Positions 1 through 11,259 of a stretch of 47,833 bases of DNA are shown piece after piece (position 1 is the first letter of the stretch; each line of letters starts with the position of its first letter). The notes under the pieces were generated by a model. The model saw only the letters and a list, made by a program, of their open reading frames with translations, was not told the DNA's origin and did no database searches. The translations under genes were made by a program, and so were the position numbers. The DNA is taken from assembly GCA_030615265.1 (NCBI GenBank), contig JAUWZP010000005.1:1-47833 (forward strand). The letters run 5' to 3'. This DNA comes from Candidatus Bathyarchaeota archaeon (GTDB lineage Archaea > Thermoproteota > Bathyarchaeia > Bathyarchaeales > Bathyarchaeaceae).

Positions 1-287
1 TGAATTATATTGCTCGTAGCAAAGCTAATAGCGATGCTGAAAGCGCCAAGCCCCACAATCAGCGAGGTTAAGTCAACGCCTAAAAGGGAAATCACAGCAA
101 AAACCCCAACAACATATAGTACATACTTAACGCCCCTTACAATTCCCTTTTCAATCTCTTCGGGAAAAGGTGTCTTCTCAAACACCTTCGCAAGAACCCT
201 GGAAACGATTCTAGCAACCAGGTAAGTGACCGCAAATGCAACAACCACCTCGATAACTTGAATAACGTTTATTCCAGCAATCTCCAT
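1..287 (-). CDS. MscS-family small-conductance mechanosensitive channel, N-terminal part (truncated by window edge)
   Basis: The reverse strand reads an open frame of 95 codons from ATG at 287 to the window edge. It has two hydrophobic segments (about residues 8-28 and 50-70) followed by a third that reads LGVDLTSLIVGLGAFSIAIS, which resembles the Gly/Ala-rich pore-lining TM3 of MscS channels. The cytoplasmic beta domain and the C-terminus lie outside the window. MscS channels are inner-membrane tension valves that release solutes during hypo-osmotic shock. An AGGAGG SD sequence lies about 10 bases upstream of the ATG, and a TATA-like CATAAAAAG sits near 336-344 on the same strand. The gene is divergent from the wHTH gene at 497. 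Family assignment is from TM3 only, hence not certain. Confidence 0.72.
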   Translation of the reverse strand, partial: MEIAGINVIQVIEVVVAFAVTYLVARIVSRVLAKVFEKTPFPEEIEKGIVRGVKYVLYVVGVFAVISLLGVDLTSLIVGLGAFSIAISFATSNII

Positions 288-349
288 CGAATCGAAGCCT
301 CCTTAACCTAACCTTTCCACTAAAGCTACATAACACTTTTTATGGAAAG

Positions 350-361
350 CTAAAGCTTTAG
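350..361. promoter_or_regulatory. 12-bp perfect palindrome in a divergent promoter region
   Basis: CTAAAGCTTTAG is a perfect palindrome between the divergent mscS-like gene and the wHTH gene at 497. It lies just upstream of the TATA-like element for the minus-strand gene. A second TATA-like stretch (TTTTATATG, about 461-469) is about 30 bases before the ATG at 497, which fits a nearly leaderless plus-strand transcript. The palindrome could be an operator, but nothing identifies the regulator. Confidence 0.3.
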
Positions 362-496
362 ATAAGATTTCGCGCGCAATTATCAGAGATGGAAGTAAAT
401 GTGTTTTTAAAAGCATTTTTAATTCCATACATGCGATTGAATTTGTAATCAAAGAGAATGTTTTATATGTAAGTACTTTTAATTAGACCTCTAAAA

Positions 497-772
497 ATGA
501 TTTGCAATCGAGGTTTACTTTTGGGAAAGAGGGAAGAGAGAATTCAGAAGAGGAGGAAAAAAATTATGGATTTTCTACTTGGTCGAAAGGCTCTTGACAT
601 TAGGCGTGGCTTGACTGTCAAAGAGATCACAAATGAATTGGATGAATCCGAGTCTGTGATACGACTTGATTTGTATTCAATGAAAGTGGATGGTGTGGAA
701 CGTGATTCGAAACGAATACCGAACGTTTTTTGGCTATCAAAGGAGGTTGGAGACGATGCGCGCGCTCTCTAA
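497..772 (+). CDS. Small winged-helix DNA-binding protein
   Basis: A 91-residue basic protein. Residues 10-30 are strongly charged (Arg/Lys/Glu-rich). Residues 38-80 have the pattern of a winged-helix domain: LTVKEITNEL as helix 2, SESVIRLDLYSMKVDG as the recognition helix, then a short wing ending in VFWLS. It has no SD but a TATA-like box about 30 bases upstream, as in leaderless archaeal genes. Its last 17 bases overlap the pyrF reading frame, and the pyrF SD is embedded in its 3' end, so the two are probably translationally coupled. That makes a role in regulating pyrF or pyrimidine synthesis possible, but this rests only on gene order. I do not recognise a named family. Confidence 0.65.
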   Translation: MICNRGLLLGKREERIQKRRKKIMDFLLGRKALDIRRGLTVKEITNELDESESVIRLDLYSMKVDGVERDSKRIPNVFWLSKEVGDDARAL

Positions 773-1556
773 TGTTGCAGAACTGCAAACTCGTTCCCAG
801 AAAGGTTTTAAGGTGAGAAAGAAAGAAACTAAAGTCTATGAGAGAGAGTTGCGAATGTCCAGATTAACCGAAAGAAATCGAATAATCCACGCGTTGGATG
901 TCGAAGACAAAGAGAAGGCATTAAGAATAGCCAGTGCGGTTAAGGAGTATGTAGATGCGATAAAAATTTCGTATCCCACATTCTTAAACATCTTGATCAC
1001 GCATAAGTCAAACATAATTAGTGAAATAAAGGAAATTACCAGACTGCCAATTTTAGCTTGCTTCAAGGTGGCGGACATCCCGTTTATTAGCTCCCGAATA
1101 ATGAGAATAACCATGGATGCGGGTGCAGATGGAGTAACGGTTCATGGGATGACTGGAAGGGACACAGTAAAAGCATGTATTGCCACTGCAAATAAAAGAG
1201 GAGTAGGTGTTTTTGTTGTCACGGAAATGTCGCACCCCGGGGCAATAGAATTTTATCAACCATTGGGTGACAAAATAGCCAAAATGGCAAAAGAGCTAGG
1301 AGCAACAGGGATTGTGGCTCCAGCAACAAGACCAAACAGAGTAAGGAAATATAGAAAAATAGTTGGCGAAGATATGATCATCATTTCTCCTGGCATAGGT
1401 GCACAAGGGGGTCAGATTGGAGATGCAATCGCAGAAGGAGCAAATTTTGAGGTCATAGGGCGACTAATATATACTTCATCAAATCCAGCTAATTCGGCCC
1501 GCGAGATCAGCCAACAACTTAAAAAGAGACTTGAAAAACCTCCTGTAGTGAGGTAA
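756..1556 (+). CDS. pyrF: Orotidine 5'-phosphate decarboxylase-like protein (OMPDC) with a Cys in place of a catalytic Asp
   Basis: OMPDC makes UMP from OMP, the last step of pyrimidine synthesis. The TIM-barrel signatures of archaeal OMPDC are all visible: IIHALDV (phosphate-side Asp), AIKISYP (Lys on strand 2), FKVADIP (catalytic Lys and the Asp donated across the dimer), TEMSHPG, ISPGIGAQGG and IGRLIY with the phosphate-binding Arg. The canonical D-x-K-x-x-D motif reads C102-F-K104-V-A-D107, so the first Asp is replaced by Cys (codon TGC at 1059-1061). I chose ATG 756 because AGGAGGT sits 8 bases upstream. This gives 266 residues with a basic N-terminal extension. Homologs normally begin near ATG 855, which is the alternative start. 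The gene ends directly against the convergent paralog, with no intergenic base. Confidence 0.88.
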   Translation: MRALSNVAELQTRSQKGFKVRKKETKVYERELRMSRLTERNRIIHALDVEDKEKALRIASAVKEYVDAIKISYPTFLNILITHKSNIISEIKEITRLPILACFKVADIPFISSRIMRITMDAGADGVTVHGMTGRDTVKACIATANKRGVGVFVVTEMSHPGAIEFYQPLGDKIAKMAKELGATGIVAPATRPNRVRKYRKIVGEDMIIISPGIGAQGGQIGDAIAEGANFEVIGRLIYTSSNPANSAREISQQLKKRLEKPPVVR

Positions 1557-2174
1557 TTATTGTTCAAGAAGCTCACAAGAAACTATCTCAAAATCGGCAC
1601 CTGAAGATATTGCATCACCCACTTTACCTCTCTTCTCGATAGTTGAAAGCAGTTGTAGATCATTCCCGATAGTCTCTTTCACCTTTCTTATCCTATCTAA
1701 ATGACGAGAAGTCATAACTATGCCTTCGCATCTGTTGTCTCGCGCCAAAATGGCATTCTGTACGACCTGAGTATCGTCAAATAACTCTCGGAAGAACGGA
1801 GTGCCCACATCGATTATCGCAAATATTCCTATTCTTGCTTTTTTTGTGCAGAATCTGAGGAAATCTTTTCCGTAGACAGCCATAACGGTCATTCCAAAAG
1901 CACCTTCGTTTTCAAAAAGATTGGAGAGAGCGGGTAGTGAATCCAGTTCCGACTGATCGAGCCTGTAATCTATAATTAGAGGTTTTTCAGAGTTATTCTT
2001 CCGCATAAAACTCTTTATTTCTGAAATCACACTAGCAGACTCTCGAAGTAACACTGGTAGTTTTAGATAAATTGCATCTATCGAATCTGACAAGCGTCTT
2101 ATTGCACTCTGTATCTCGCTTTTTCCGCTAGTGTCAAACGATACTATAATGCCTGTCTTTTTTTCCATAACCAT
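1557..2174 (-). CDS. Degenerate OMP decarboxylase paralog (TIM barrel, probably catalytically inactive)
   Basis: A 205-residue protein that follows the OMPDC pattern at low similarity: GIIVSFDTSGK aligns with the strand-1 Asp region, DAIYLKLP with the strand-2 Lys region, PLIIDYRLDQ with the D-x-K-x-x-D region, then GAFGMTVMA and the C-terminal GDAISSGADFEIV, which matches the phosphate-binding end. The strand-2 Lys is Tyr36, the catalytic Lys is Arg71 and the following Asp position is Gln74, while Asp69 is kept. By alignment it should not decarboxylate OMP, unlike a normal PyrF. The start ATG 2174 has GAAGGAGA eight bases upstream. Its 3' end abuts the 3' end of pyrF exactly, tail to tail. 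A regulatory, scaffolding or other sugar-phosphate role is possible; no function is claimed. Confidence 0.75.
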   Translation of the reverse strand: MVMEKKTGIIVSFDTSGKSEIQSAIRRLSDSIDAIYLKLPVLLRESASVISEIKSFMRKNNSEKPLIIDYRLDQSELDSLPALSNLFENEGAFGMTVMAVYGKDFLRFCTKKARIGIFAIIDVGTPFFRELFDDTQVVQNAILARDNRCEGIVMTSRHLDRIRKVKETIGNDLQLLSTIEKRGKVGDAISSGADFEIVSCELLEQ

Positions 2175-2282
2175 TCTTTTTTCTCCTTCAAGCCTAGCTA
2201 TCTTTTAATTGGCTCAAAGACTAATAATCATAACGGTTCATGGTTCAGCATCTTTGCGAATGCACGCCCGCGTTTTGCAGTT

Positions 2283-2294
2283 TGCATGCATGCA
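2283..2294. repeat. TGCATGCATG element, copy 1 (extended to 12 bp)
   Basis: TGCATGCATGCA upstream of the TIR-nuclease operon. It lies about 50 bp before the TATA-like sequence ATATAAAATA (2345-2354) that probably drives the operon. It is one of five copies of TGCATGCATG found in this window, all between 2.28 and 9.89 kb. Confidence 0.55.
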
Positions 2295-2344
2295 TCGTGT
2301 TGAGCTAGGATTGCGCATCTAGCTTATTGCCATTTGATGCTAAA

Positions 2345-2354
2345 ATATAAAATA
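2345..2354 (+). promoter_or_regulatory. TATA-like promoter element of the TIR-nuclease operon
   Basis: ATATAAAATA is preceded by an A-rich stretch and lies about 50 bases upstream of the GTG at 2396. Transcription would be expected near 2372-2376, giving a short leader. Confidence 0.4.
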
Positions 2355-2395
2355 CAACCTACAGAAATACAAAAGCAAGTCAACGACAAGTAGAA

Positions 2396-3283
2396 GTGGG
2401 TTTGAGAGACATGGTGAGATTACCAGCAAAAAAGAAGAAGCAAGTTTTTCTGATTTATGCTACAGAGGATGGAGCTATCTCGCGAGAAATCACAAAGCAA
2501 CTTGAAATAAGTGGCTTCAGTGTTGCACATTTTGAATACGAGCTGTTGTGGGATGATTCAATGGCAAATAAGATGAGAAACGTCATTTCTTCAGGTGATT
2601 ATATCTTTTTCTTACTTTCAAAGAATTCACTAAGGTCTGAATGGGTTAGATATGAGCTTTCAGCAACATACCTTGATGAGTTGGCAACTCGTGATGTTAC
2701 TGTTATTCCCGTGTTGATCGACTATTCCAAAGTCCCTGATTTTTTATCGAAATTCCAAATGCTTGACCTTCGGAAAAAGACCAGTGGAAACATCAGAAAA
2801 GTCATCAGTCAAATCCTGAATGCCCCCAGGATCGACCTCTCTTCTCTTTCTGGATATGAGTTTCTAAGACTGGCAGCCGATCTCTTGAAGAAACTCAGAT
2901 TCAGAAACATCAAAACGGGTTCAGGAGTGGAAGATAGAGGTATTGATCTGATGGCTGAATTCTACCGACGAGATCCATTTGGTGTAGAGAACAAAGAAGT
3001 CTGGATTGTAGAGACAAAGTTCTATCAAAACGAGAGAGCGAGTCTAAAATCTCTTCGTGCATTGGCGGGCTCATTGACTTTTTTTCCAGATGCCAAAGCC
3101 CTCCTAATTACAAATGGCTTACTGACATCCTACGCTAGGAAGTGGCTTCAAGATATTTCCGGACGCGGAAGGCATATTCGAGTAATTGAAGGTCCAGAGC
3201 TTAGGAATCTTCTCCTTCGTTTTCCAGATCTGGTGGACCAATATTTTCCACCTGCAAGTCAGAGGGTAATGGATGCCGACTGA
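2396..3283 (+). CDS. TIR domain - Mrr-type restriction endonuclease fusion
   Basis: Residues 15-135 form a TIR domain: KQVFLIYATEDG on the first strand, then a WDDS segment, DYIFFLLSKNS and SEWVRYEL, where Glu87 sits at the NADase catalytic position. Residues 150-285 form an Mrr-like PD-(D/E)xK nuclease: GYEFLRLAADLL helix, GIDL with Asp184, and IVETKF with Glu206 and Lys208, followed by AKALLITNG. TIR domains in prokaryotic defence either cleave NAD+ or act as signalling modules, and Mrr domains cut DNA, often modified DNA. The combination suggests an anti-phage or anti-plasmid effector. The start is GTG 2396, with ATG 2411 as an alternative. The last 11 bases overlap the next gene, a second nuclease, so the two form an operon. 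It lies 0.6 kb from the end of a type I restriction operon. Confidence 0.82.
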   Translation: MGLRDMVRLPAKKKKQVFLIYATEDGAISREITKQLEISGFSVAHFEYELLWDDSMANKMRNVISSGDYIFFLLSKNSLRSEWVRYELSATYLDELATRDVTVIPVLIDYSKVPDFLSKFQMLDLRKKTSGNIRKVISQILNAPRIDLSSLSGYEFLRLAADLLKKLRFRNIKTGSGVEDRGIDLMAEFYRRDPFGVENKEVWIVETKFYQNERASLKSLRALAGSLTFFPDAKALLITNGLLTSYARKWLQDISGRGRHIRVIEGPELRNLLLRFPDLVDQYFPPASQRVMDAD

Positions 3284-3809
3284 ACAGCTAATACATCGAC
3301 TTTTCTCTTGTCCGAAGGGAAAGAAGGGATGGAGACAATTCGAAGATATCTGTATCGAAGTTCTTCAATTCTTATTTGTGCCGCCTCTGAGAAGACCGAG
3401 AATTCAATCAAGGCCCATATCAGGTGTAGAAAGGAGAGATGCTGTATTTCCAAATTGGATTTCAGATACTGCAAGTATATGGGGGCAGTTGCGTGTTGAA
3501 CTCAATGTTCGCTTCATCCTTTTCGAATTCAAGAACTTCAAAAAACAGAAGGTCAGTTCCACAGATGTTGACCAAGTGAGGAACTACCTTAGTCCTAGAA
3601 TCGGCAAGCTGGGAATTATAATCAGCACCCAACCACCAAGTAGAGCTGCCCTCAAAAAAAGGAACAGGGTCTATACTGATGACGAGAAGGTGGTTCTCTT
3701 TTTGAGTCCCAACGACTTGAAAGAGATGATATTTATCAAAGAAAGGGGAGAAGACCCGGCTGATCTAATAATGGATGCGGTTGATGATTTCATGTTGCAA
3801 TATGGGTGA
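3273..3809 (+). CDS. PD-(D/E)xK restriction-endonuclease-like protein, partner of the TIR-Mrr gene
   Basis: A 178-residue protein beginning with a helix GWRQFEDICIEVLQFLF typical of restriction-endonuclease-like folds. It then has RRDAVFPN (Asp56) and FILFEFKNF (Glu85 and Lys87), matching the D...ExK catalytic core, followed by DVDQVRNYL and the strand LGIIIST. The 11-base overlap with the TIR-Mrr gene implies translational coupling and joint action. It may be a second nuclease subunit or a DNA-binding helper. I do not recognise a named family beyond the fold. It is followed by a 36-bp gap to a convergent gene. Confidence 0.72.
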   Translation: MPTEQLIHRLFSCPKGKKGWRQFEDICIEVLQFLFVPPLRRPRIQSRPISGVERRDAVFPNWISDTASIWGQLRVELNVRFILFEFKNFKKQKVSSTDVDQVRNYLSPRIGKLGIIISTQPPSRAALKKRNRVYTDDEKVVLFLSPNDLKEMIFIKERGEDPADLIMDAVDDFMLQYG

Positions 3810-3845
3810 GTGCTCGAGTGACATGTCGTCGGGTGGTGCCGTCCC

Positions 3846-4163
3846 TCAATGTGTCGTAACATGAGACTCTATTCTAGGTGCATGCATGTCCTGCGCTCTC
3901 TCTTGTTCTGCACGTGAAAGAAGCATAAAACGACCACGACTCACATGATGCTTTTTATAGATCCCGGAATCTAGAAGCAACTGCAAATATTCTTCTACAA
4001 CCTTTCTCCTCAGCCCAGATTCTAACGCGTACAACGCGATCAACTCTCTGATGCTTTTCAGTTTTCTATTAGATGTGACAAAGCGCTTGAAAGCTTCTAC
4101 GCGTGCTTGCCTTCGCTGGATCGGTGACCCCTTAAGCTTAACAATGTCGCTCAAATCTCTCAC
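3846..4163 (-). CDS. Small helical protein, possible winged-helix regulator
   Basis: A 105-residue basic protein. Residues 10-35 are rich in Arg/Lys. Residues 36-70 (SIRELIALYALESGLRRKVV followed by EEYLQLLLDSGIY) look like a helix-turn-helix, then GRFMLLS as a possible wing. The start is GTG 4163, without SD. A TATA box (TATAAA on this strand, 4195-4200) lies about 35 bases upstream, so the transcript is almost leaderless. Inverted repeats sit upstream of that TATA box. The protein may be an autoregulator in the defence island. One TGCATGCATG copy lies inside its 3' end. Function is not known. Confidence 0.55.
   Translation of the reverse strand: MRDLSDIVKLKGSPIQRRQARVEAFKRFVTSNRKLKSIRELIALYALESGLRRKVVEEYLQLLLDSGIYKKHHVSRGRFMLLSRAEQERAQDMHAPRIESHVTTH
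3879..3888. repeat. TGCATGCATG element, copy 2
   Basis: TGCATGCATG within the 3' coding end of the minus-strand gene 3846-4163, about 70 bp downstream of the end of the TIR-nuclease operon. It is the only one of the five copies that lies inside a gene. Confidence 0.5.
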
Positions 4164-4213
4164 CAGATTTCGTGTATGTGTGCATCATGGTCTCTTTATA
4201 GCACTTGCTGATG

Positions 4214-4244
4214 TGATATATCATATAATGATAAAGTCTATCAT
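4214..4244 (-). promoter_or_regulatory. Two inverted repeats upstream of the promoter of the 3846-4163 gene
   Basis: TGATATATCA (4214-4223) is a perfect palindrome. It is followed by ATGATA and TATCAT arms separated by five bases (4228-4244). Both lie immediately upstream of TATAAA (4195-4200, minus strand) for the small gene starting at 4163. The position and half-site likeness (TGATA) suggest one repressor or activator site, perhaps for autoregulation. Confidence 0.4.
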
Positions 4245-4421
4245 AAACAGACTTTTCAGTTTGTGTAAAGAAGCTCTTTCATGATAAAAGCGAGATAAGC
4301 GCTCTTATCTTCAACGGTTTTTCCCAGTAAGAGCTTTCCATGCGGCAAGCCAGGCCTAAATCCAGCTTCCTCGCCCTATGACCACGCGCGATTCAAGATT
4401 CCAGCGATACGCTCTCTTCTA

Positions 4422-5705
4422 TCATAGTTGCGCGTTGAACGCCCTATCTAGAATGCTGGAGATTAATTCCTTTATCTCTTCTTCCGTTTCATCCTGCAAT
4501 TTCTTCAGTTCATCCACATTTTCCTTAAGACAGTCAAGGTTGGCGACAATGCGACGTTGGTCTTTAATGTTATTAACAAAGTTGACATTGATTGTGTAAA
4601 TATCTGTGCTTCTGATTCCCGGCTTAGGAGATCTTGTTGGCAATTCGTCGAGCTTTTTCTCCAATAGAACATAGTATAAATACTTCATATCCAAGGGCAC
4701 CAAAGGAACTACATAATATGTTGTATCAATTGGCCAACAGGGTTCATCAGTTACGGTTAATTTTCCTGTTGATCCTTTTCTGCCTATGACAATCGTTGGA
4801 TGTTCAACAATGTATTCGCTGTGAAAGCCGACGATTCCGTTTGAACCATATACCCCATATTTTCCATTATCGTCTCTATCAGAACTCTTCAACCCTTTTC
4901 CGCTCCTGATTTTGACTATCCTTCTAAGTTCAATTTGTTGCCCCTCAGCTGAGTTAACAACTCTATCCAGTTTTGCGAAAAAGAGCTCCTCCAAGTCCTT
5001 TGTTGCGCCCGCCCTAAGCCTCCCTGCTTCTTCTATACTCACTAAGAGACGTTCAATCTTCCCAATCTTTTCTTCCATTTCTTCGAATATTGGTGGTAAC
5101 TCTACTGATTTGCCATATACTTTATTTCTGTAGGCATTAAGGTATTTGGCTATAGCCTCCTGAACCTCAATTCCCGGAACAAAAATCTCTAACGACGAAA
5201 GTTTTTTCCCGTTCACATTGGGCTGTGCGGAACCGATTTTTTCGGTCTTAATCTGTGACCAATATTGTTTTGTTTGGAAAAACCAATATAAGAAATCAGG
5301 GGTTACACCTTTTTTGGGTTTGATTCGAATGAGATATGAGGCGAAAACGGATCTGGGTATTTTGCCCTTCACAATAAAGCTTTTTCCAGTAGTCCCACCT
5401 GTGCGAGCAAAGAGAATATCGTTCTCTCCTAAGAGATATTTTTCAGGATGCGCACAGCGACAATAGGGAACAGAATTCCAATCTATTTTGCCGGCCTGAA
5501 TATCGGTAATTCTAACATATTTGGTACCTATAGGTTCCCTTGAAGCCGATGCGGTATACCCATATTGGGGCTTTTCGATTATTTTTGAAAGATGGGTTCT
5601 GGAATAATTCATCAATTCCAACTCTTTGAATAAAACGGAAGAAACGACACCTACCAGAGTTTCCTCAAACGGAACGTGATATGGAATAAATGATTCAATT
5701 TTCAA
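4422..5705 (-). CDS. hsdS: Type I restriction-modification system, specificity subunit HsdS
   Basis: A 427-residue protein with two target-recognition domains. The first (about residues 35-195) has KYVRITDIQAGKIDW and NDILFARTGGTTGKS. The second (about 255-390) has YGVYGSNGIVGFHSEY and TIVIGRKGSTGK. Each is followed by a helical spacer (about 200-245 and 395-420). HsdS reads the two half-sites of the recognition sequence and holds two HsdM and two HsdR subunits. The start codon is TTG 5705, overlapping the hsdM stop as TTGA, so translation is coupled. It is the last gene of the hsdR-hsdM-hsdS operon. The recognition sequence cannot be deduced from the protein. Confidence 0.93.
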   Translation of the reverse strand: MKIESFIPYHVPFEETLVGVVSSVLFKELELMNYSRTHLSKIIEKPQYGYTASASREPIGTKYVRITDIQAGKIDWNSVPYCRCAHPEKYLLGENDILFARTGGTTGKSFIVKGKIPRSVFASYLIRIKPKKGVTPDFLYWFFQTKQYWSQIKTEKIGSAQPNVNGKKLSSLEIFVPGIEVQEAIAKYLNAYRNKVYGKSVELPPIFEEMEEKIGKIERLLVSIEEAGRLRAGATKDLEELFFAKLDRVVNSAEGQQIELRRIVKIRSGKGLKSSDRDDNGKYGVYGSNGIVGFHSEYIVEHPTIVIGRKGSTGKLTVTDEPCWPIDTTYYVVPLVPLDMKYLYYVLLEKKLDELPTRSPKPGIRSTDIYTINVNFVNNIKDQRRIVANLDCLKENVDELKKLQDETEEEIKELISSILDRAFNAQL

Positions 5706-7270
5706 TGTATATCACTTCTGCTTGTCTCCTCCAGAATTGCTTCAAGCAATTCAGATATTCTCTTTTCCTTTTCAAGGATGCTGCCAACTATTTCCTCAGG
5801 AACTCTGTACTCTTCGCCCTTTGCTCTACTTGGATTTCTAACATCTAGATTGTAATTGTTCTGTGTTACCTCTTCAACGGATGCTTTCCAAGCATGATCA
5901 TTTTCGACTCTATTGTTCCACCAGTCCCCCAGCGGTTTGAATTCTTCATATCGCAAGGGCTTAGTTTTAGTGTAACATGGATTTTTCAAATGTTGTCTTT
6001 CAGGAGGTAGAGGATGTTCATAATACCAAATTTCCTTTGTAACTCCATTCCTTTCAAAAAACAAGAGATTTGTTTTTATGTATGCATAAGGGGCGAATAC
6101 GCCTTTAGGTAGTTTCACAATGGTATGTAAGTTGAAGTTTTCGATCAGTTGTTTCTTAATTCTTGCTCCCACACCAGTAGCAAAAAGTGTGCCATCTGGG
6201 ACAACGACACCACAACGTCCACCCTTTTTTCCTCTGATTGGTCGCCTAAGTTTTCGCATTATTAGTTGTAGAAAAAGTAGCGCTGTTTCAGCTGTTTGTT
6301 TGTCCTTTGGAAAATTCCCTTGGATACCCGGTTCTTCAGCACCTCCAAATGGAGGATTAGTTAATATTATGTCTACTCTATCCTTGTCTCCGATTTCTCT
6401 CAAAGGAAAACGTAGAGCATTTCCGGAATCAATTTCTGGCGTTTCGACTCCATGCAAAAGCATATTCATCTGGCAAAGTAAAAAGGGTAAAGGTTTTGCT
6501 TCAAATCCTGATAATGTACTTTTCTGTAATATCTCAAAATCTTCCGACTTCTCACATTGATCTTTAAGAAGCTTGAAAGATTCAACGAGAAAACCCCCTG
6601 TCCCAGCAGCTGGATCTAAAATGGTTTCTCCAAGTTGAGGATTGACAACTTTGACCATAAATTGAATCACAGGTCTTGGAGTGTAGAACTCGCCTGCATC
6701 CCCTGCTGAATCGCGCATCTCTTTTAGTAATGATTCATAAATGAAAGCGAGTGTGTGAATCTCTTCTGTGGAACCAAAGTGTATCTCATCTATTTTGTTT
6801 ATTACTCTACGAAGAAGATAACCATTAATCATTCTGTTTACTACGCCTTTAAAGACGGTGGCAACAACATCTCGTCTATCTTTTTCTTCCGATCCGGACA
6901 GCGATCTTAAATAAGCAAATAAACCCATTCCTTCTGTGCCATCAGGCCTTATTGTCTTATCTTGATTGATGAATGCAAGTAGCTCTGAACCTGTAATTCC
7001 CTCTTTCTTTGCAGCCCAGTCTCGCCATCGATAAGGTTTTTCTATCGTCTGTCTAAATGAAACATTTTTTAATTTTGCTTCAGCTTCCAAAATTCGTTCT
7101 TGATCGTCAAAGAATTTTAAAAACATAAGCCATGTTATCATGGGAATTCTATCAACATCACCGTTTAATCCCTTATCCTTGCGCATTTCGTCCCGAACAG
7201 ATTTGATTATGGAACTGAGGTTCTGACGTGAAGTTCTTACTTGTGTGTTGTCTAGGGTTTTTTGTCTCAT
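5702..7270 (-). CDS. hsdM: Type I restriction-modification system, N6-adenine methyltransferase HsdM
   Basis: A 522-residue protein. The N-terminal helical domain (residues 10-160) is followed by DAGEFYTPRPV (about 191-201), the SAM-binding motif LDPAAGTGGF (about 218-227) and the catalytic motif NPPFGG (about 305-310), all typical of type I gamma-class adenine methyltransferases. HsdM methylates adenine in the bipartite target to protect host DNA and, with HsdS, forms the core enzyme. The start ATG 7270 has an AGGGG-type SD and lies 9 bases below the hsdR stop. No frameshift or missing motif is visible, so it is likely functional. Confidence 0.95.
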   Translation of the reverse strand: MRQKTLDNTQVRTSRQNLSSIIKSVRDEMRKDKGLNGDVDRIPMITWLMFLKFFDDQERILEAEAKLKNVSFRQTIEKPYRWRDWAAKKEGITGSELLAFINQDKTIRPDGTEGMGLFAYLRSLSGSEEKDRRDVVATVFKGVVNRMINGYLLRRVINKIDEIHFGSTEEIHTLAFIYESLLKEMRDSAGDAGEFYTPRPVIQFMVKVVNPQLGETILDPAAGTGGFLVESFKLLKDQCEKSEDFEILQKSTLSGFEAKPLPFLLCQMNMLLHGVETPEIDSGNALRFPLREIGDKDRVDIILTNPPFGGAEEPGIQGNFPKDKQTAETALLFLQLIMRKLRRPIRGKKGGRCGVVVPDGTLFATGVGARIKKQLIENFNLHTIVKLPKGVFAPYAYIKTNLLFFERNGVTKEIWYYEHPLPPERQHLKNPCYTKTKPLRYEEFKPLGDWWNNRVENDHAWKASVEEVTQNNYNLDVRNPSRAKGEEYRVPEEIVGSILEKEKRISELLEAILEETSRSDIH

Positions 7271-7279
7271 CTCAATCCC

Positions 7280-9619
7280 CTAGGTTACGTAGAGTAGGTT
7301 TTGCAATTCATCTAATGATGATTTAAGTTCATCAGGACCACCAAAAAACGTTGCTATTTCTAGCACATTTCCATAACTGGAAATTGGTGGGATCTTCAAT
7401 ACATTCACGTCATTAAGCTGAGTAGTTCCGAAGTCAATATACTTTTCTAAAATCTCAGATAGAATGTTTCGAGCTTCAGGTCTAAACCTATTAAAAAATT
7501 CCTTCTCCTCTTTTCTTAGGCGTTCAGCTCGTTCTCTGCGAGATCGAATCGGAGCGTTAAACGCAATATTACACAAGACATCGAAGGGATCTGCTCCCGG
7601 AACTCCGCTTACCCTAAGTAGTTGTTCTAAAGAGATGCCACGATCTTCTAATGATTCAATTATAGCTTCTCTTTGTTCTGCTTCACTCCATTTAGACCTC
7701 AATTCTGCAGTTGAAGTAAACATTGATCGTACTTCTTTCCCGGCATATTCTGTATAACTTATAGCTCTAATGCGTTTTCCATCTTCGTCAAGATCATACA
7801 CAGTATCAGTAACTATCTCAACTGAACCACCATCAACATAATATTTACTGGGCTCCCCTTCAGAGTCATCACTAATACTGGGTTCTTCGTCTTCTGGTTC
7901 TTCAAAAGGTCTAAACGTCCATTCTTTCAAGAGTTTTCCTTCGGCATCAATTTCTTCTTCGGTTAAATGAGCTGGATCTCCATCAAAGTCTGGATCAGCA
8001 AAAAGCTTTGTGGCACTTCCTGTGTAATCAAGTATTGTGAAAAAGAGTTTTCCATAATCATCTCTTACTCTTGTTCCACGACCAATCATCTGCTTAAAAT
8101 CAGTCATTGAATTAATATTTCGGAGCAAAACAATATTTTTGCACAAAGGAACATCGACGCCAGTAGTCAATAGTTGAGATGTTGTGACCAATACTGGAAC
8201 CTCAGTTTCAATATCCATGAACTTGTCCAAATGGCCCCGGGCAACATCTCCATCTTCTGATACAATTCTGACTACATACTCTGGTTTTTTCTGGGTTAGA
8301 TCACTGTTTAAGTTGTTTAGTATGCTTCGCATTATATGTGCATGGTCAATGTCAACACAAAAGATGATGGTTTTTGCCCATCGGTCAGTCTCTCTTAAGT
8401 AGTTTGTAAGATGTTTAGCTACAGCTTCAGAACGGGCTGTCAGTGAGATAATTCTTTCGAATTCAGGTGTCTCATAGAGTTTGTCTGGAATTATTCTTTT
8501 GTATCGGTCAATCTGATCTTTGGTTGGTCTCCATCCTTCAGCGTCTACATTTGAAACAACTCTACGAACCCTGTAAGGTGCTAAGAAGCCATCTTGGATG
8601 CCTTGACTGAGGCTATACAAATAAACTGGGTTCCCAAAATATCTATACGTAGCTCGGTTATCTCTTCTGAGAGGTGTAGCCGTCATACCTAACTGGTAAG
8701 CAGGACTAAAATACTGTAATATTTCCCGCCAATTATTTTCATCTCTTGCACTTCCTCTGTGACACTCGTCAACGATTATCAAATCAAAGAAATCTCGTGG
8801 GTATTCCTTGAAAAGTCCAGGTCTCCTTTCATCACGAGCAATAGACTGGTAAGTAGCAAAATAGACTTCTCGACTCTTATCTGCTTCACCTTTAATTTTA
8901 TGTCTCGCATCACCTAAAGGAGCAAAGACCTTGTCTTTAGGATCATCCACCAGAATGTTCCGATCAGCTAAATACAAAACCCTAGGCTTTCTATATTCTC
9001 CAGTTCTATTCCATCTACTATTCCAAAGTCTCCAGACAATTTGAAACGCAACGAAAGTCTTTCCAGTACCAGTAGCCATAGTAAGAAGAACTCTCTTCTT
9101 CCCTGACAGAACTGCTTTAATTACTCTGTGGATAGCTATCTCCTGATAATATCGAGGGGGCTTACCTGGAACTCTATATCCGGGAGCCAAAACTCTTTCA
9201 GCAAATAAGTCATCCTTAATTCCTTCAGCCGTTCTAAGACGGTTCCATAGTTCATCTGGAGAAGGGAATCTTTCAAGCCTCTTTTCTTTCCCGGTAAAGA
9301 AGTTATGTTCAATAATTTCTTTACCGTTAGTTGCATATGCAAACTTCAAGCCTAAAGTTTGAGCGTATTCTTTAGCTTGTGGGAGACCAGCAGCGGCACT
9401 CTTATTTGCAGACTTTGCCTCTACAACTGCCATCATAAAATCGCGCCTATATCTAAGAATGTAATCAGCTCTTTTTTGTTGGCGACGTCTACACTTGTTC
9501 TCTAGAACTACAATTCTACCGTCAGTGAAGGTCTTTTCTCGACTTATTTGATCCTCTGTCCAACCAGCACTATGCAACTTAGGAGTGATATACTTACTAC
9601 AGGTATCAGCTTCGGAAAT
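7280..9619 (-). CDS. hsdR: Type I restriction-modification system, restriction/translocase subunit HsdR (apparent ATT start)
   Basis: A 779-residue protein from the chosen start. The N-terminal nuclease has ADYIL (about Asp52) and VVEAK (about Glu67 and Lys69). The SF2 translocase follows, with Walker A MATGTGKT (about 180-187), DECH (about 284-287) and GMTATP, then helicase C motifs (TSQLLTTGVDVP, IGRGTR) and a C-terminal HsdS/M-docking region. The first ATG/GTG/TTG in frame is TTG 9577, but the frame continues upstream as ISEADTCSKYITPKLHSAGW. This matches the conserved HsdR N-terminus (normally M-x-E-A-D-T-C-x-K-Y) and precedes TTG 9577 by 14 codons. The initiator there is ATT at 9617-9619, with a GGAGAGGAG SD upstream. 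An in-frame stop (TAA, 9626-9628) leaves no standard start. It is the first gene of the operon. Confidence 0.92.
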   Translation of the reverse strand: MSEADTCSKYITPKLHSAGWTEDQISREKTFTDGRIVVLENKCRRRQQKRADYILRYRRDFMMAVVEAKSANKSAAAGLPQAKEYAQTLGLKFAYATNGKEIIEHNFFTGKEKRLERFPSPDELWNRLRTAEGIKDDLFAERVLAPGYRVPGKPPRYYQEIAIHRVIKAVLSGKKRVLLTMATGTGKTFVAFQIVWRLWNSRWNRTGEYRKPRVLYLADRNILVDDPKDKVFAPLGDARHKIKGEADKSREVYFATYQSIARDERRPGLFKEYPRDFFDLIIVDECHRGSARDENNWREILQYFSPAYQLGMTATPLRRDNRATYRYFGNPVYLYSLSQGIQDGFLAPYRVRRVVSNVDAEGWRPTKDQIDRYKRIIPDKLYETPEFERIISLTARSEAVAKHLTNYLRETDRWAKTIIFCVDIDHAHIMRSILNNLNSDLTQKKPEYVVRIVSEDGDVARGHLDKFMDIETEVPVLVTTSQLLTTGVDVPLCKNIVLLRNINSMTDFKQMIGRGTRVRDDYGKLFFTILDYTGSATKLFADPDFDGDPAHLTEEEIDAEGKLLKEWTFRPFEEPEDEEPSISDDSEGEPSKYYVDGGSVEIVTDTVYDLDEDGKRIRAISYTEYAGKEVRSMFTSTAELRSKWSEAEQREAIIESLEDRGISLEQLLRVSGVPGADPFDVLCNIAFNAPIRSRRERAERLRKEEKEFFNRFRPEARNILSEILEKYIDFGTTQLNDVNVLKIPPISSYGNVLEIATFFGGPDELKSSLDELQNLLYVT

Positions 9620-9671
9620 GACCGTTTATTTCTCCTCTCCTTTTGATTGAGCGAATTAATCTTATCAGACT

Positions 9672-9682
9672 TGCATGCATGC
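9672..9682. repeat. TGCATGCATG element, copy 3
   Basis: TGCATGCATGC in the divergent region between hsdR and the wHTH-HNH pair. On the minus strand it lies about 55 bases upstream of the hsdR initiator and just above an AT-rich stretch (GATAAGATTAATT) that could be the hsd promoter. Confidence 0.55.
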
Positions 9683-9718
9683 CGTCAGTGAAAGTTCTCT
9701 GCTCAGCGATCTATTCAT

Positions 9719-9728
9719 TGCATGCATG
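9719..9728. repeat. TGCATGCATG element, copy 4
   Basis: TGCATGCATG in the middle of the divergent intergenic region (9620-9935) between hsdR and the wHTH-HNH operon. This 316-bp region contains three copies of the element and no visible gene. Confidence 0.55.
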
Positions 9729-9870
9729 ATTATTTCACTCAACCGTATTTGTTGTTTAAACTGAACTTAAACTCTGCGGTTACATTGATCTGATTAATAC
9801 TGGCTTTGCTGAAATCGGCTGAATCTTATTTGGTTTTCTCAACCATGAAAAACAAGATAACCTTGTCGAA

Positions 9871-9881
9871 TGCATGCATGC
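9871..9881. repeat. TGCATGCATG element, copy 5
   Basis: TGCATGCATGC directly upstream of the TATA-like TTTAAATAA (9895-9903), which should drive the wHTH-HNH pair. The spacing of about 14 bp to the TATA box is suitable for an activator or repressor. Confidence 0.55.
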
Positions 9882-9894
9882 GCAGACCGTAGCG

Positions 9895-9903
9895 TTTAAA
9901 TAA
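9895..9903 (+). promoter_or_regulatory. TATA-like promoter of the wHTH-HNH pair
   Basis: TTTAAATAA lies about 35 bases upstream of ATG 9936 and just downstream of TGCATGCATG copy 5. Confidence 0.45.
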
Positions 9904-9935
9904 TTGAATGAGTCAATTGACTTAGCTGATTGGCT

Positions 9936-10436
9936 ATGTCGTTAAGAAACCTTATCGATATATATGAAGCACATAAACGAGAGACGATTATCGATTATCT
10001 TCTTACACATCAGAATCCTTATGAAAGAAACCAAAGGAGCATGATGAGCGCGTTAGGAATGAGCCAAGCAACTTTGGTGAAATATCTCGCTGGGTTGAAA
10101 GGTGAAAGATTAGTTGTAGAGAAGCCTTTTGGCACAGCCGTTGTTTACGAGATTCCATATGACATCGCAATTGCAAGTGGGCTTGCTGATAAATACGAGA
10201 TTTTTGATTTAGACAAGTATCTGGCGGCAAAGAGTCAACCGAGTAGCCGAGAGTGGGCGGGAAGGGTTTTCAACTTTGTAGATGTGGTTTACATTCATGC
10301 AATACATAAAGACGGGTTCAAGATTGGGATTCCCATTCGAGACAAGGATAAGAAGGAGTTGGTTGAAGCGGTTGCCCTCGGATTGAATATTGAAGCGATC
10401 TTCACCGCTATTGTCAATTATTTTGCGCAGAGGTGA
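9936..10436 (+). CDS. Winged-helix DNA-binding protein, cotranscribed with an HNH nuclease
   Basis: A 166-residue protein. Residues 10-70 form a helix-turn-helix: [38 protein letters not shown] (recognition helix) and a wing around [17 protein letters not shown]. The C-terminal half (about 75-166) has no family I recognise. The start ATG 9936 follows a TATA-like box by about 35 bases; TTG 9930 is an alternative two codons upstream. The HNH gene follows with its SD embedded in this gene's end, so they are likely one unit. Because TGCATGCATG copies occur at this promoter and at hsdR, this protein is a candidate regulator of the island; that is inference. Confidence 0.65.
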
Positions 10437-10441
10437 GGTCT

Positions 10442-10693
10442 ATGGGATACACAAATGATGAGCTGAGCTATGTCTATGATAAAAACGATGGATATTGCTG
10501 GCATTGTGGAAAGAAACTTGCATGGAAGAATTATGCCATGCGCTATGACCGAGGAGCTTGGGAAGTTGATCACAGCAATCCAGTTTCGAGAGGCGGAACG
10601 GATTATCTGAGAAATCTCGTCCCCGCGTGCATTGAATGCAACCGGAGCAAAGGCGATCTAACGTCGCGAGAATTTGAAAGCTTTCTAGAATGA
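10442..10693 (+). CDS. Small HNH endonuclease
   Basis: An 83-residue protein with a complete HNH/zinc core: CWHC (first Cys pair), [13 protein letters not shown] (the His of the beta-beta-alpha-metal motif), [17 protein letters not shown] (Asn, second Cys pair CIEC, final His-equivalent position Asn). HNH domains cut or nick DNA. The start ATG 10442 has AGGTGAGG just upstream; GTG 10433, overlapping the previous stop, is the alternative. It is shorter than McrA/5-methylcytosine-type enzymes and lacks an additional specificity domain, so the upstream wHTH protein may supply DNA binding. Confidence 0.8.
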
Positions 10694-10948
10694 ATCCTCT
10701 TTCATGTCTGCTTATTTTCCGCTTGTTTGCTCTAGCTATTCAGAAGTAAACTTCTAAGCGCGCATAGAATACAATCTTCAATGATACTTGAAGGCTTTAA
10801 CTGGGAGAAAACCGTTGAACATAAGAAGCATTATCTCGTTTTTATCATGAAACAATGAATACTTCCAAAGACAGAACTGATTTTGCATCAACCTTTTCTA
10901 TTTTACTATATACTAAATACAATGCCGTAGATAGCGCAAGACTAGCGG

Positions 10949-11131
10949 TTATACGAACTCGTTTGGATGGTGATATTTCATCGCTTTTGTCATTAAGTAG
11001 GAGCGATTACGAGGCAGGTGTATGCCAAAGTCTTCGCGGGCTACGATGCGCATAAGCTGAGGGTCTATTTTGCGCGCTTGAGATTCTTCATCTTCAACTT
11101 CACTGAATTTTTCCCTCACGGAGTAAAGCAT
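10949..11131 (-). CDS. Small hypothetical protein, last gene of a short operon
   Basis: A 60-residue ORF starting at ATG 11131, five bases after the stop of the zinc-ribbon gene. It is acidic to neutral at the start (EKFSEVEDEE) and basic near the end (IHLPRNRSYLMTKAMKYHHP). I see no known family. A longer reading from ATG 11182 would overlap the zinc-ribbon ORF and is less likely. Between this gene and the HNH gene (10694-10948) I see no further ORF, only a short inverted repeat AGAAGT/ACTTCT at 10742-10755. Confidence 0.4.
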   Translation of the reverse strand: MLYSVREKFSEVEDEESQARKIDPQLMRIVAREDFGIHLPRNRSYLMTKAMKYHHPNEFV

Positions 11132-11136
11132 GTTCT

Positions 11137-11259
11137 CTAGGCTTTTCCTTGCCGGTAAAGAATGGTTCCACAGTTTCTGCATGCGTAGAAGTTGGATTCA
11201 ACCTTTCTTTGTTTGGACTTATCAATTTCACTGTTGCAATTTGAATTTGGACATTTCAT
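11137..11259 (-). CDS. 40-residue zinc-ribbon-like microprotein
   Basis: The reverse strand encodes 40 residues from ATG 11259: MKCPNSNCNSEIDK at the N-terminus (Cys pair C-x4-C) and YACRNCGTILYRQG near the C-terminus (C-x2-C), ending at TAG 11137. The two Cys pairs and the C-R-N-C-G knuckle are the pattern of a small zinc ribbon, as in RNA-polymerase- or ribosome-associated proteins. A purine-rich GAAGTGAAGGG precedes the start. It lies between two small genes of the same strand downstream of aIF5A. Function unknown; the Cys pattern makes it more than a chance ORF. Confidence 0.5.
   Translation of the reverse strand: MKCPNSNCNSEIDKSKQRKVESNFYACRNCGTILYRQGKA

Follow-up and report, generated by a model that had tools for sequence, protein, structure and literature searches.

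OMP decarboxylase (OMPDC), an enzyme of pyrimidine synthesis, is a textbook example of extreme catalytic power, and to our knowledge its motif has been reported in all organisms. Close to the left end of a 47,833-nt stretch of archaeal DNA (the window, meaning the whole stretch that was analysed), two genes for OMPDC homologs meet tail to tail, and both encode proteins that are altered at catalytic positions. This arrangement raises the question of whether two altered copies together make up an enzyme, as the initial annotation of the locus hinted, or whether the pair serves some purpose other than decarboxylation while the cell obtains that activity elsewhere.

Two convergent OMPDC homologs

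The genes under consideration are the following.

497-772, forward strand: putative winged-helix (HTH) protein of 91 aa (weak match to PF0610-like_N, E 0.0037, below cut-off).
756-1556, forward strand: D70C protein resembling PyrF, PRK13813 type (methanogen/Thermoplasmata; PRK13813.1, E 1.4e-69); the neighbour.
1557-2174, reverse strand: degenerate OMPDC-fold paralog of 205 aa, stop 1557-1559, ATG 2172-2174 (homology, predicted fold and residue table).

The degenerate gene is real and its product is an OMPDC homolog. Its stop codon abuts the stop of the pyrF-like gene (1554-1556) with 0 bases between them, so that the reading-frame coordinates agree with the gapless tail-to-tail arrangement first annotated, and an AAGGAG-like Shine-Dalgarno site lies directly 5' of its ATG. 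The protein matches NCBIfam NF010386 (PRK13813.1) with 51 bits (E 1.4e-13), aligns with the neighbour's product at 26% identity (BLASTP, E 1e-18) and has the Archaeoglobus fulgidus OMPDC as its best PDB match (phmmer, 3.2e-6), while falling under both family cut-offs (19.2 vs 27 bits for PF00215, 51 vs 208 bits for NF010386). An AlphaFold2 (AF2) model, built on an input alignment that contained seven PyrF homologs, reached a pLDDT of 89.2 and a pTM of 0.87, and the top Foldseek matches to this model were all archaeal OMPDCs (E 2.8e-12, TM 0.82). Model and structural search hence both indicate an OMPDC-type barrel, predicted with PyrF rows in the alignment, and bear out the TIM-barrel outline proposed from the sequence. 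Neither PADLOC nor PHROG returned a match for the protein, and its membership of a defence family was dropped on these grounds.

The neighbour lies above the curated cut-offs (139.7 bits for PF00215; 234 vs 208 bits for NF010386). Its probable start is the ATG at 756, with an AGGAGG at 741-746, in place of position 690 given by the ORF caller; the conserved core begins near 855, and the N-terminal extension before it is of low confidence. The closest relative of the neighbour, at 50% identity, is a canonical PyrF with an intact 'DLKLAD' motif from a genome of the same class, in which no second PyrF was found. The 3' end of the small upstream gene overlaps the probable neighbour start by 17 nt; the location of ATG 756 inside the end of this gene suggests translational coupling. 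The small protein, for which no homolog was found in 60 relatives, is a possible cotranscribed regulator.

Active-site residues and the geometry of a mixed dimer

Residues are numbered after the Methanothermobacter thermautotrophicus (Mt) enzyme and were compared over about 97 homologs. The catalytic tetrad (K42, D70, K72 and D75') reads Tyr, Asp, Arg and Gln in the degenerate protein, with Ser at the last position in an alternative alignment. Further losses comprise S127 to Gly, R160 to His, Q185 to Lys and G202-R203 to Ser-Cys; the GxGxQG loop has decayed and is shorter by two residues, and no C-terminal helix is left, so that phosphate and flap positions are affected alike. D20 and D70 are the sole checked active-site residues left. 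The catalytically degenerate pseudoenzyme of the initial annotation is thus backed by K42Y, K72R, Q185K, R203C and the loss of D75, and its residue readings agree with ours for Tyr at the strand-2 Lys and Arg at the catalytic Lys, as well as for the missing trans Asp, with Gln or Ser in its place depending on the alignment. The phosphate end, described there as kept, is instead eroded at S127, R160, Q185, R203, the GxGxQG loop and the last helix.

The neighbour presents a different picture, in which D70 is replaced by Cys and K42, K72, D75 and all other checked catalytic and phosphate residues are intact. Its motif is C-F-K-V-A-D ('ACFKVADIP'), with Cys for the first Asp of D-x-K-x-x-D, and the codon (TGC) is two base changes away from either Asp codon. 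The degenerate copy does hold the Asp that the neighbour has lost, as annotated, and is itself among the 95 of about 97 covering homologs with Asp at position 70. The exceptions are the neighbour, alone in having Cys among the homologs collected, and one Thermoplasmata copy with Tyr; natural loss of part of the motif is hence rare among homologs (2 of about 97 at this position). The Thermoplasmata PyrF (L105 1426-2091, genome G709; 'ICYMKIADIP') is one base from Asp, and its Tyr may for this reason be a sequencing error. In yeast OMPDC, alanine variants of the residues equivalent to D70, K72 and D75' (D91A, K93A and D96'A) have no detectable activity (PMC12874384). On this basis the neighbour probably does not function as a decarboxylase, bearing in mind that its D70C differs from the D70A of the yeast work.

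The complementary pattern of loss had been taken to hint at a heteromeric enzyme. Each OMPDC site draws K42, D70 and K72 from one subunit and D75' alone from the other (PMC12395307). A mixed dimer would therefore offer one site with K42, C70 and K72 but without D75', and a second with Y42, D70 and R72 together with D75'. Neither would be complete, and the D70 of the degenerate protein could not replace the C70 of the neighbour, because D70 must come from the neighbour's own chain and only D75' crosses the interface; a D75 is moreover already present in the neighbour. Segment 71-88 of the Mt enzyme lies at the dimer interface (PMC12395307), and of its 16 family-conserved positions the degenerate protein keeps 0 and the neighbour 7; in segment 94-110, the degenerate protein keeps 3 of 12. 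Site geometry and the loss of the interface segment lead us to reject heteromeric complementation. A non-canonical scaffold or allosteric partnership of the pair may exist, adjacency being the one argument that speaks for it.

Distribution, ancestry and genomic surroundings

Searches of 60 relatives, 163 genomes of the order, 398 sampled from the phylum and 350 sampled from the class Thermoplasmata brought up no recognisable orthologue of the degenerate gene. IMG/VR, phage and plasmid records held none either, and no close relative appeared in GTDB species contigs; the pattern scans detect close relatives only, and the absence holds within these collections. Likewise, the two genes were recognised together in none of the relatives or of the order, phylum and Thermoplasmata sets, so that synteny, proposed as a check on the partnership, lends it no support. 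The weak matches examined were ordinary PyrFs. A hidden Thermoplasmata family of degenerate genes, which matches of up to 56 bits had made a candidate, was discarded once the 30 sequences fetched proved to be PyrFs with K72, Q185 and R203 (the L105 protein with Tyr at D70 among them), and plasmid relatives were discarded likewise, since the motif is intact in the Vibrio match examined, a PyrF of archaeal type. The literature searched contained no description of an OMPDC pseudoenzyme.

Two other arrangements of paired OMPDC genes were seen during these searches. The conjugative plasmid NZ_AP027047.1 of Vibrio nigripulchritudo carries two pyrF genes of different types (L131 437-4687), one of them archaeal-like and 37% identical to the window PyrF, with a dTMP kinase, an aminotransferase and a MATE exporter nearby. 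On contig C40 of genome G050 (L039 3433-5069), two different OMPDC homologs stand in tandem with a 7-nt overlap and DxKxxD in both, after a phosphoribosyltransferase-like and an S-adenosylhomocysteine-hydrolase-like gene; the arrangement resembles a biosynthetic gene group connected with nucleotides.

A 38-sequence tree gives the degenerate protein an end branch of 4.7 changes per site; that of the neighbour measures 0.56. The AU test mildly rejects the two as sisters on their own (p 0.04), and a recent tandem duplication of the neighbour is accordingly not favoured; it does not reject a grouping of the degenerate protein with Thermoplasmata or with the clade to which the neighbour belongs. 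The codon score of the degenerate gene (0.173) is within the range of neighbouring genes, and when the neighbour sequence was evolved neutrally to the same divergence, by substitutions only, no stop appeared in 0.05% of runs. The gene is probably expressed, to judge from its sequence. The frame is intact, a Shine-Dalgarno-like site precedes the start, codons are used as in other genes and the fold is confident, which together point to maintenance as a protein and disfavour neutral pseudogene decay. Since no relative searched carries the gene, its retention could be recent. The independent decayed duplicate that had been offered as a second option is thus near right in ancestry, and less so in the decay that it implies.

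The pair lies within an accessory region, whose main features are as follows.

1-11148: accessory region of ~11 kb (third-position G+C and DNA comparison).
2396-3283, forward strand: fusion of TIR and Mrr-type restriction endonuclease (Pfam TIR_2 2.5e-17, Mrr_cat 4.8e-14).
3273-3809: PDC-M36A-like protein, overlapping the end of the 2396-3283 gene (PADLOC E 1.1e-18; phrog_31260 E 2.3e-23).
4422-9577, reverse strand: type I restriction-modification operon, with HsdS 4422-5705, HsdM 5702-7270 and HsdR 7280-9577 (Pfam).

This location beside defence genes follows from three observations: DNA homology to a near relative (G002) begins at window position 11149 and runs rightwards, with no match for 1-11148 in two same-genus genomes other than short repeats; third-position G+C in the region, at 0.29-0.44 vs 0.38-0.52 beyond, is lower than in most of the window; and the defence genes themselves are present. 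The TIR-Mrr fusion and the PDC-M36A-like protein form a possible two-gene defence system. An imperfect inverted repeat (4277-4321 / 10808-10852; 45 nt, 87% complementary) flanks the restriction-modification operon; similar copies occur elsewhere in genome G001, and these repeats may be mobile-element ends. Window positions 1-141 are identical to the first 141 bp of contig C53 of the same assembly (C53:1-141), an exact contig overlap through which C53 probably continues the chromosome leftwards (mechanosensitive channel, then TldD/TldE-like genes). The source assembly is a draft of 119 contigs with 3.5% contamination; a contaminant origin of the window contig was rejected on account of its SHMT, which is 88-90% identical to those of same-genus genomes.

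A canonical PyrF with a DCKIND motif ('PTIMDCKINDVG') is encoded on contig C5 of this assembly (C5:13604-14284) and groups in the tree with a same-family sequence, as is typical of the lineage; a Fae-HPS fusion is found on contig C44. Given these two genes elsewhere in the genome, the window pair is additional, and housekeeping decarboxylation is assigned to the C5 PyrF. The neighbour, which the initial annotation had named pyrF, is therefore rejected as the housekeeping gene.

Interpretation and relation to known systems

We consider it fairly probable that the locus combines a non-decarboxylating pseudoenzyme of the OMPDC fold with a nucleotide-binding D70C copy, the C5 PyrF acting as housekeeper. 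The degenerate protein would trace back to a PyrF of archaea, probably one of the PRK13813 type, from which it diverged either long ago or very rapidly, and it would persist as a folded protein in the accessory region. Because K42, K72, D75, S127, Q185 and R203 are lost, neither OMPDC-like phosphate binding nor catalysis is expected of it, and its most likely remaining use would be structural or regulatory, through its surface. The neighbour should still bind a UMP- or OMP-like nucleotide, whereas OMP decarboxylation at a useful rate is not expected, and decarboxylation for housekeeping would proceed via C5.

The best surviving alternative, which we nevertheless regard as unlikely, is a pseudogene in early decay, with the degenerate copy a non-functional relic of the island and the D70C copy on the same path. 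The long branch, the loss of nearly all functional residues, a C-terminus truncated exactly at the gene junction and the failure to find an orthologue in the searched collections are all compatible with decay, but the frame is intact over 205 codons behind a Shine-Dalgarno-like site, codon usage resembles that of neighbouring genes, the barrel is predicted confidently, the probability of no stop under neutral substitution to the same divergence is 0.0005, and the D70C copy retains all its other checked active-site residues.

HPS and KGPDC, of the same superfamily as OMPDC, catalyse other reactions, and the barrel can thus change its reaction. A new enzyme, in which the D70C copy, by itself or together with the degenerate protein, carries out a different reaction on a nucleotide or a sugar phosphate, would accord with the single exchange at D70 among preserved ligand-binding residues, K42, K72 and D75, and with the extra intact-motif OMPDC copies in the accessory gene groups of L039 and the Vibrio plasmid. 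The adjacent genes are defence genes, none of them metabolic, and Cys at position 70 occurs in no other homolog collected, which makes this reading improbable. Slightly less credence still is given to a pyrimidine-nucleotide sensing module in the defence-gene region, made up of the HTH gene (497-772), a D70C barrel that would bind UMP or OMP without turnover and a ligand-blind paralog as its partner or antagonist; were it true, a recycled OMPDC pair would serve regulation and not catalysis. Least probable, lastly, is a heteromeric dimer whose D70C subunit is restored, or activated allosterically, by its degenerate partner, for while the paralogs are adjacent and both altered, and an impaired-plus-dead pair has a precedent in trypanosomatid deoxyhypusine synthase (PMC3663545), the incomplete mixed sites and eroded interface stand against it, the genes are convergent and not in one operon, the pair co-occurs in no other genome searched and a canonical PyrF is already available.

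The product of the degenerate gene is best described as a putative OMPDC pseudoenzyme, a strongly accelerated variant within a known kind of protein. A single pair in a single draft genome permits little general inference and is a modest curiosity. The role of that aspartate can be probed directly in a natural D70C protein that retains its other checked residues, and the degenerate copy illustrates the extent to which the barrel may diverge with the fold still predicted.

Among known systems, the nearest is archaeal OMPDC itself (PyrF; PRK13813/NF010386; M. thermautotrophicus 3g1a, A. fulgidus 4muz), with which both copies share the TIM barrel and end-to-end homology, identity being 20-31% in the case of the degenerate copy and roughly 40-50% in that of the neighbour. 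Compared with this enzyme, the degenerate protein is without K42, K72, D75, S127, Q185, R203 and the last helix, and the neighbour without D70. The HPS/KGPDC branch, represented in this genome by the Fae-HPS fusion, has the same fold and superfamily as the degenerate protein, but HPS carries D-x-K-x-x-D ('DLKTLD'), which the degenerate protein does not, and the latter scores best with PyrF models. The trypanosomatid deoxyhypusine synthase likewise joins an impaired and a dead paralog in one genome, the dead paralog giving a 3000-fold activation (PMC3663545); in contrast to that system, the pair described here recurred in no other genome searched, and the interface region of the degenerate OMPDC is not conserved.
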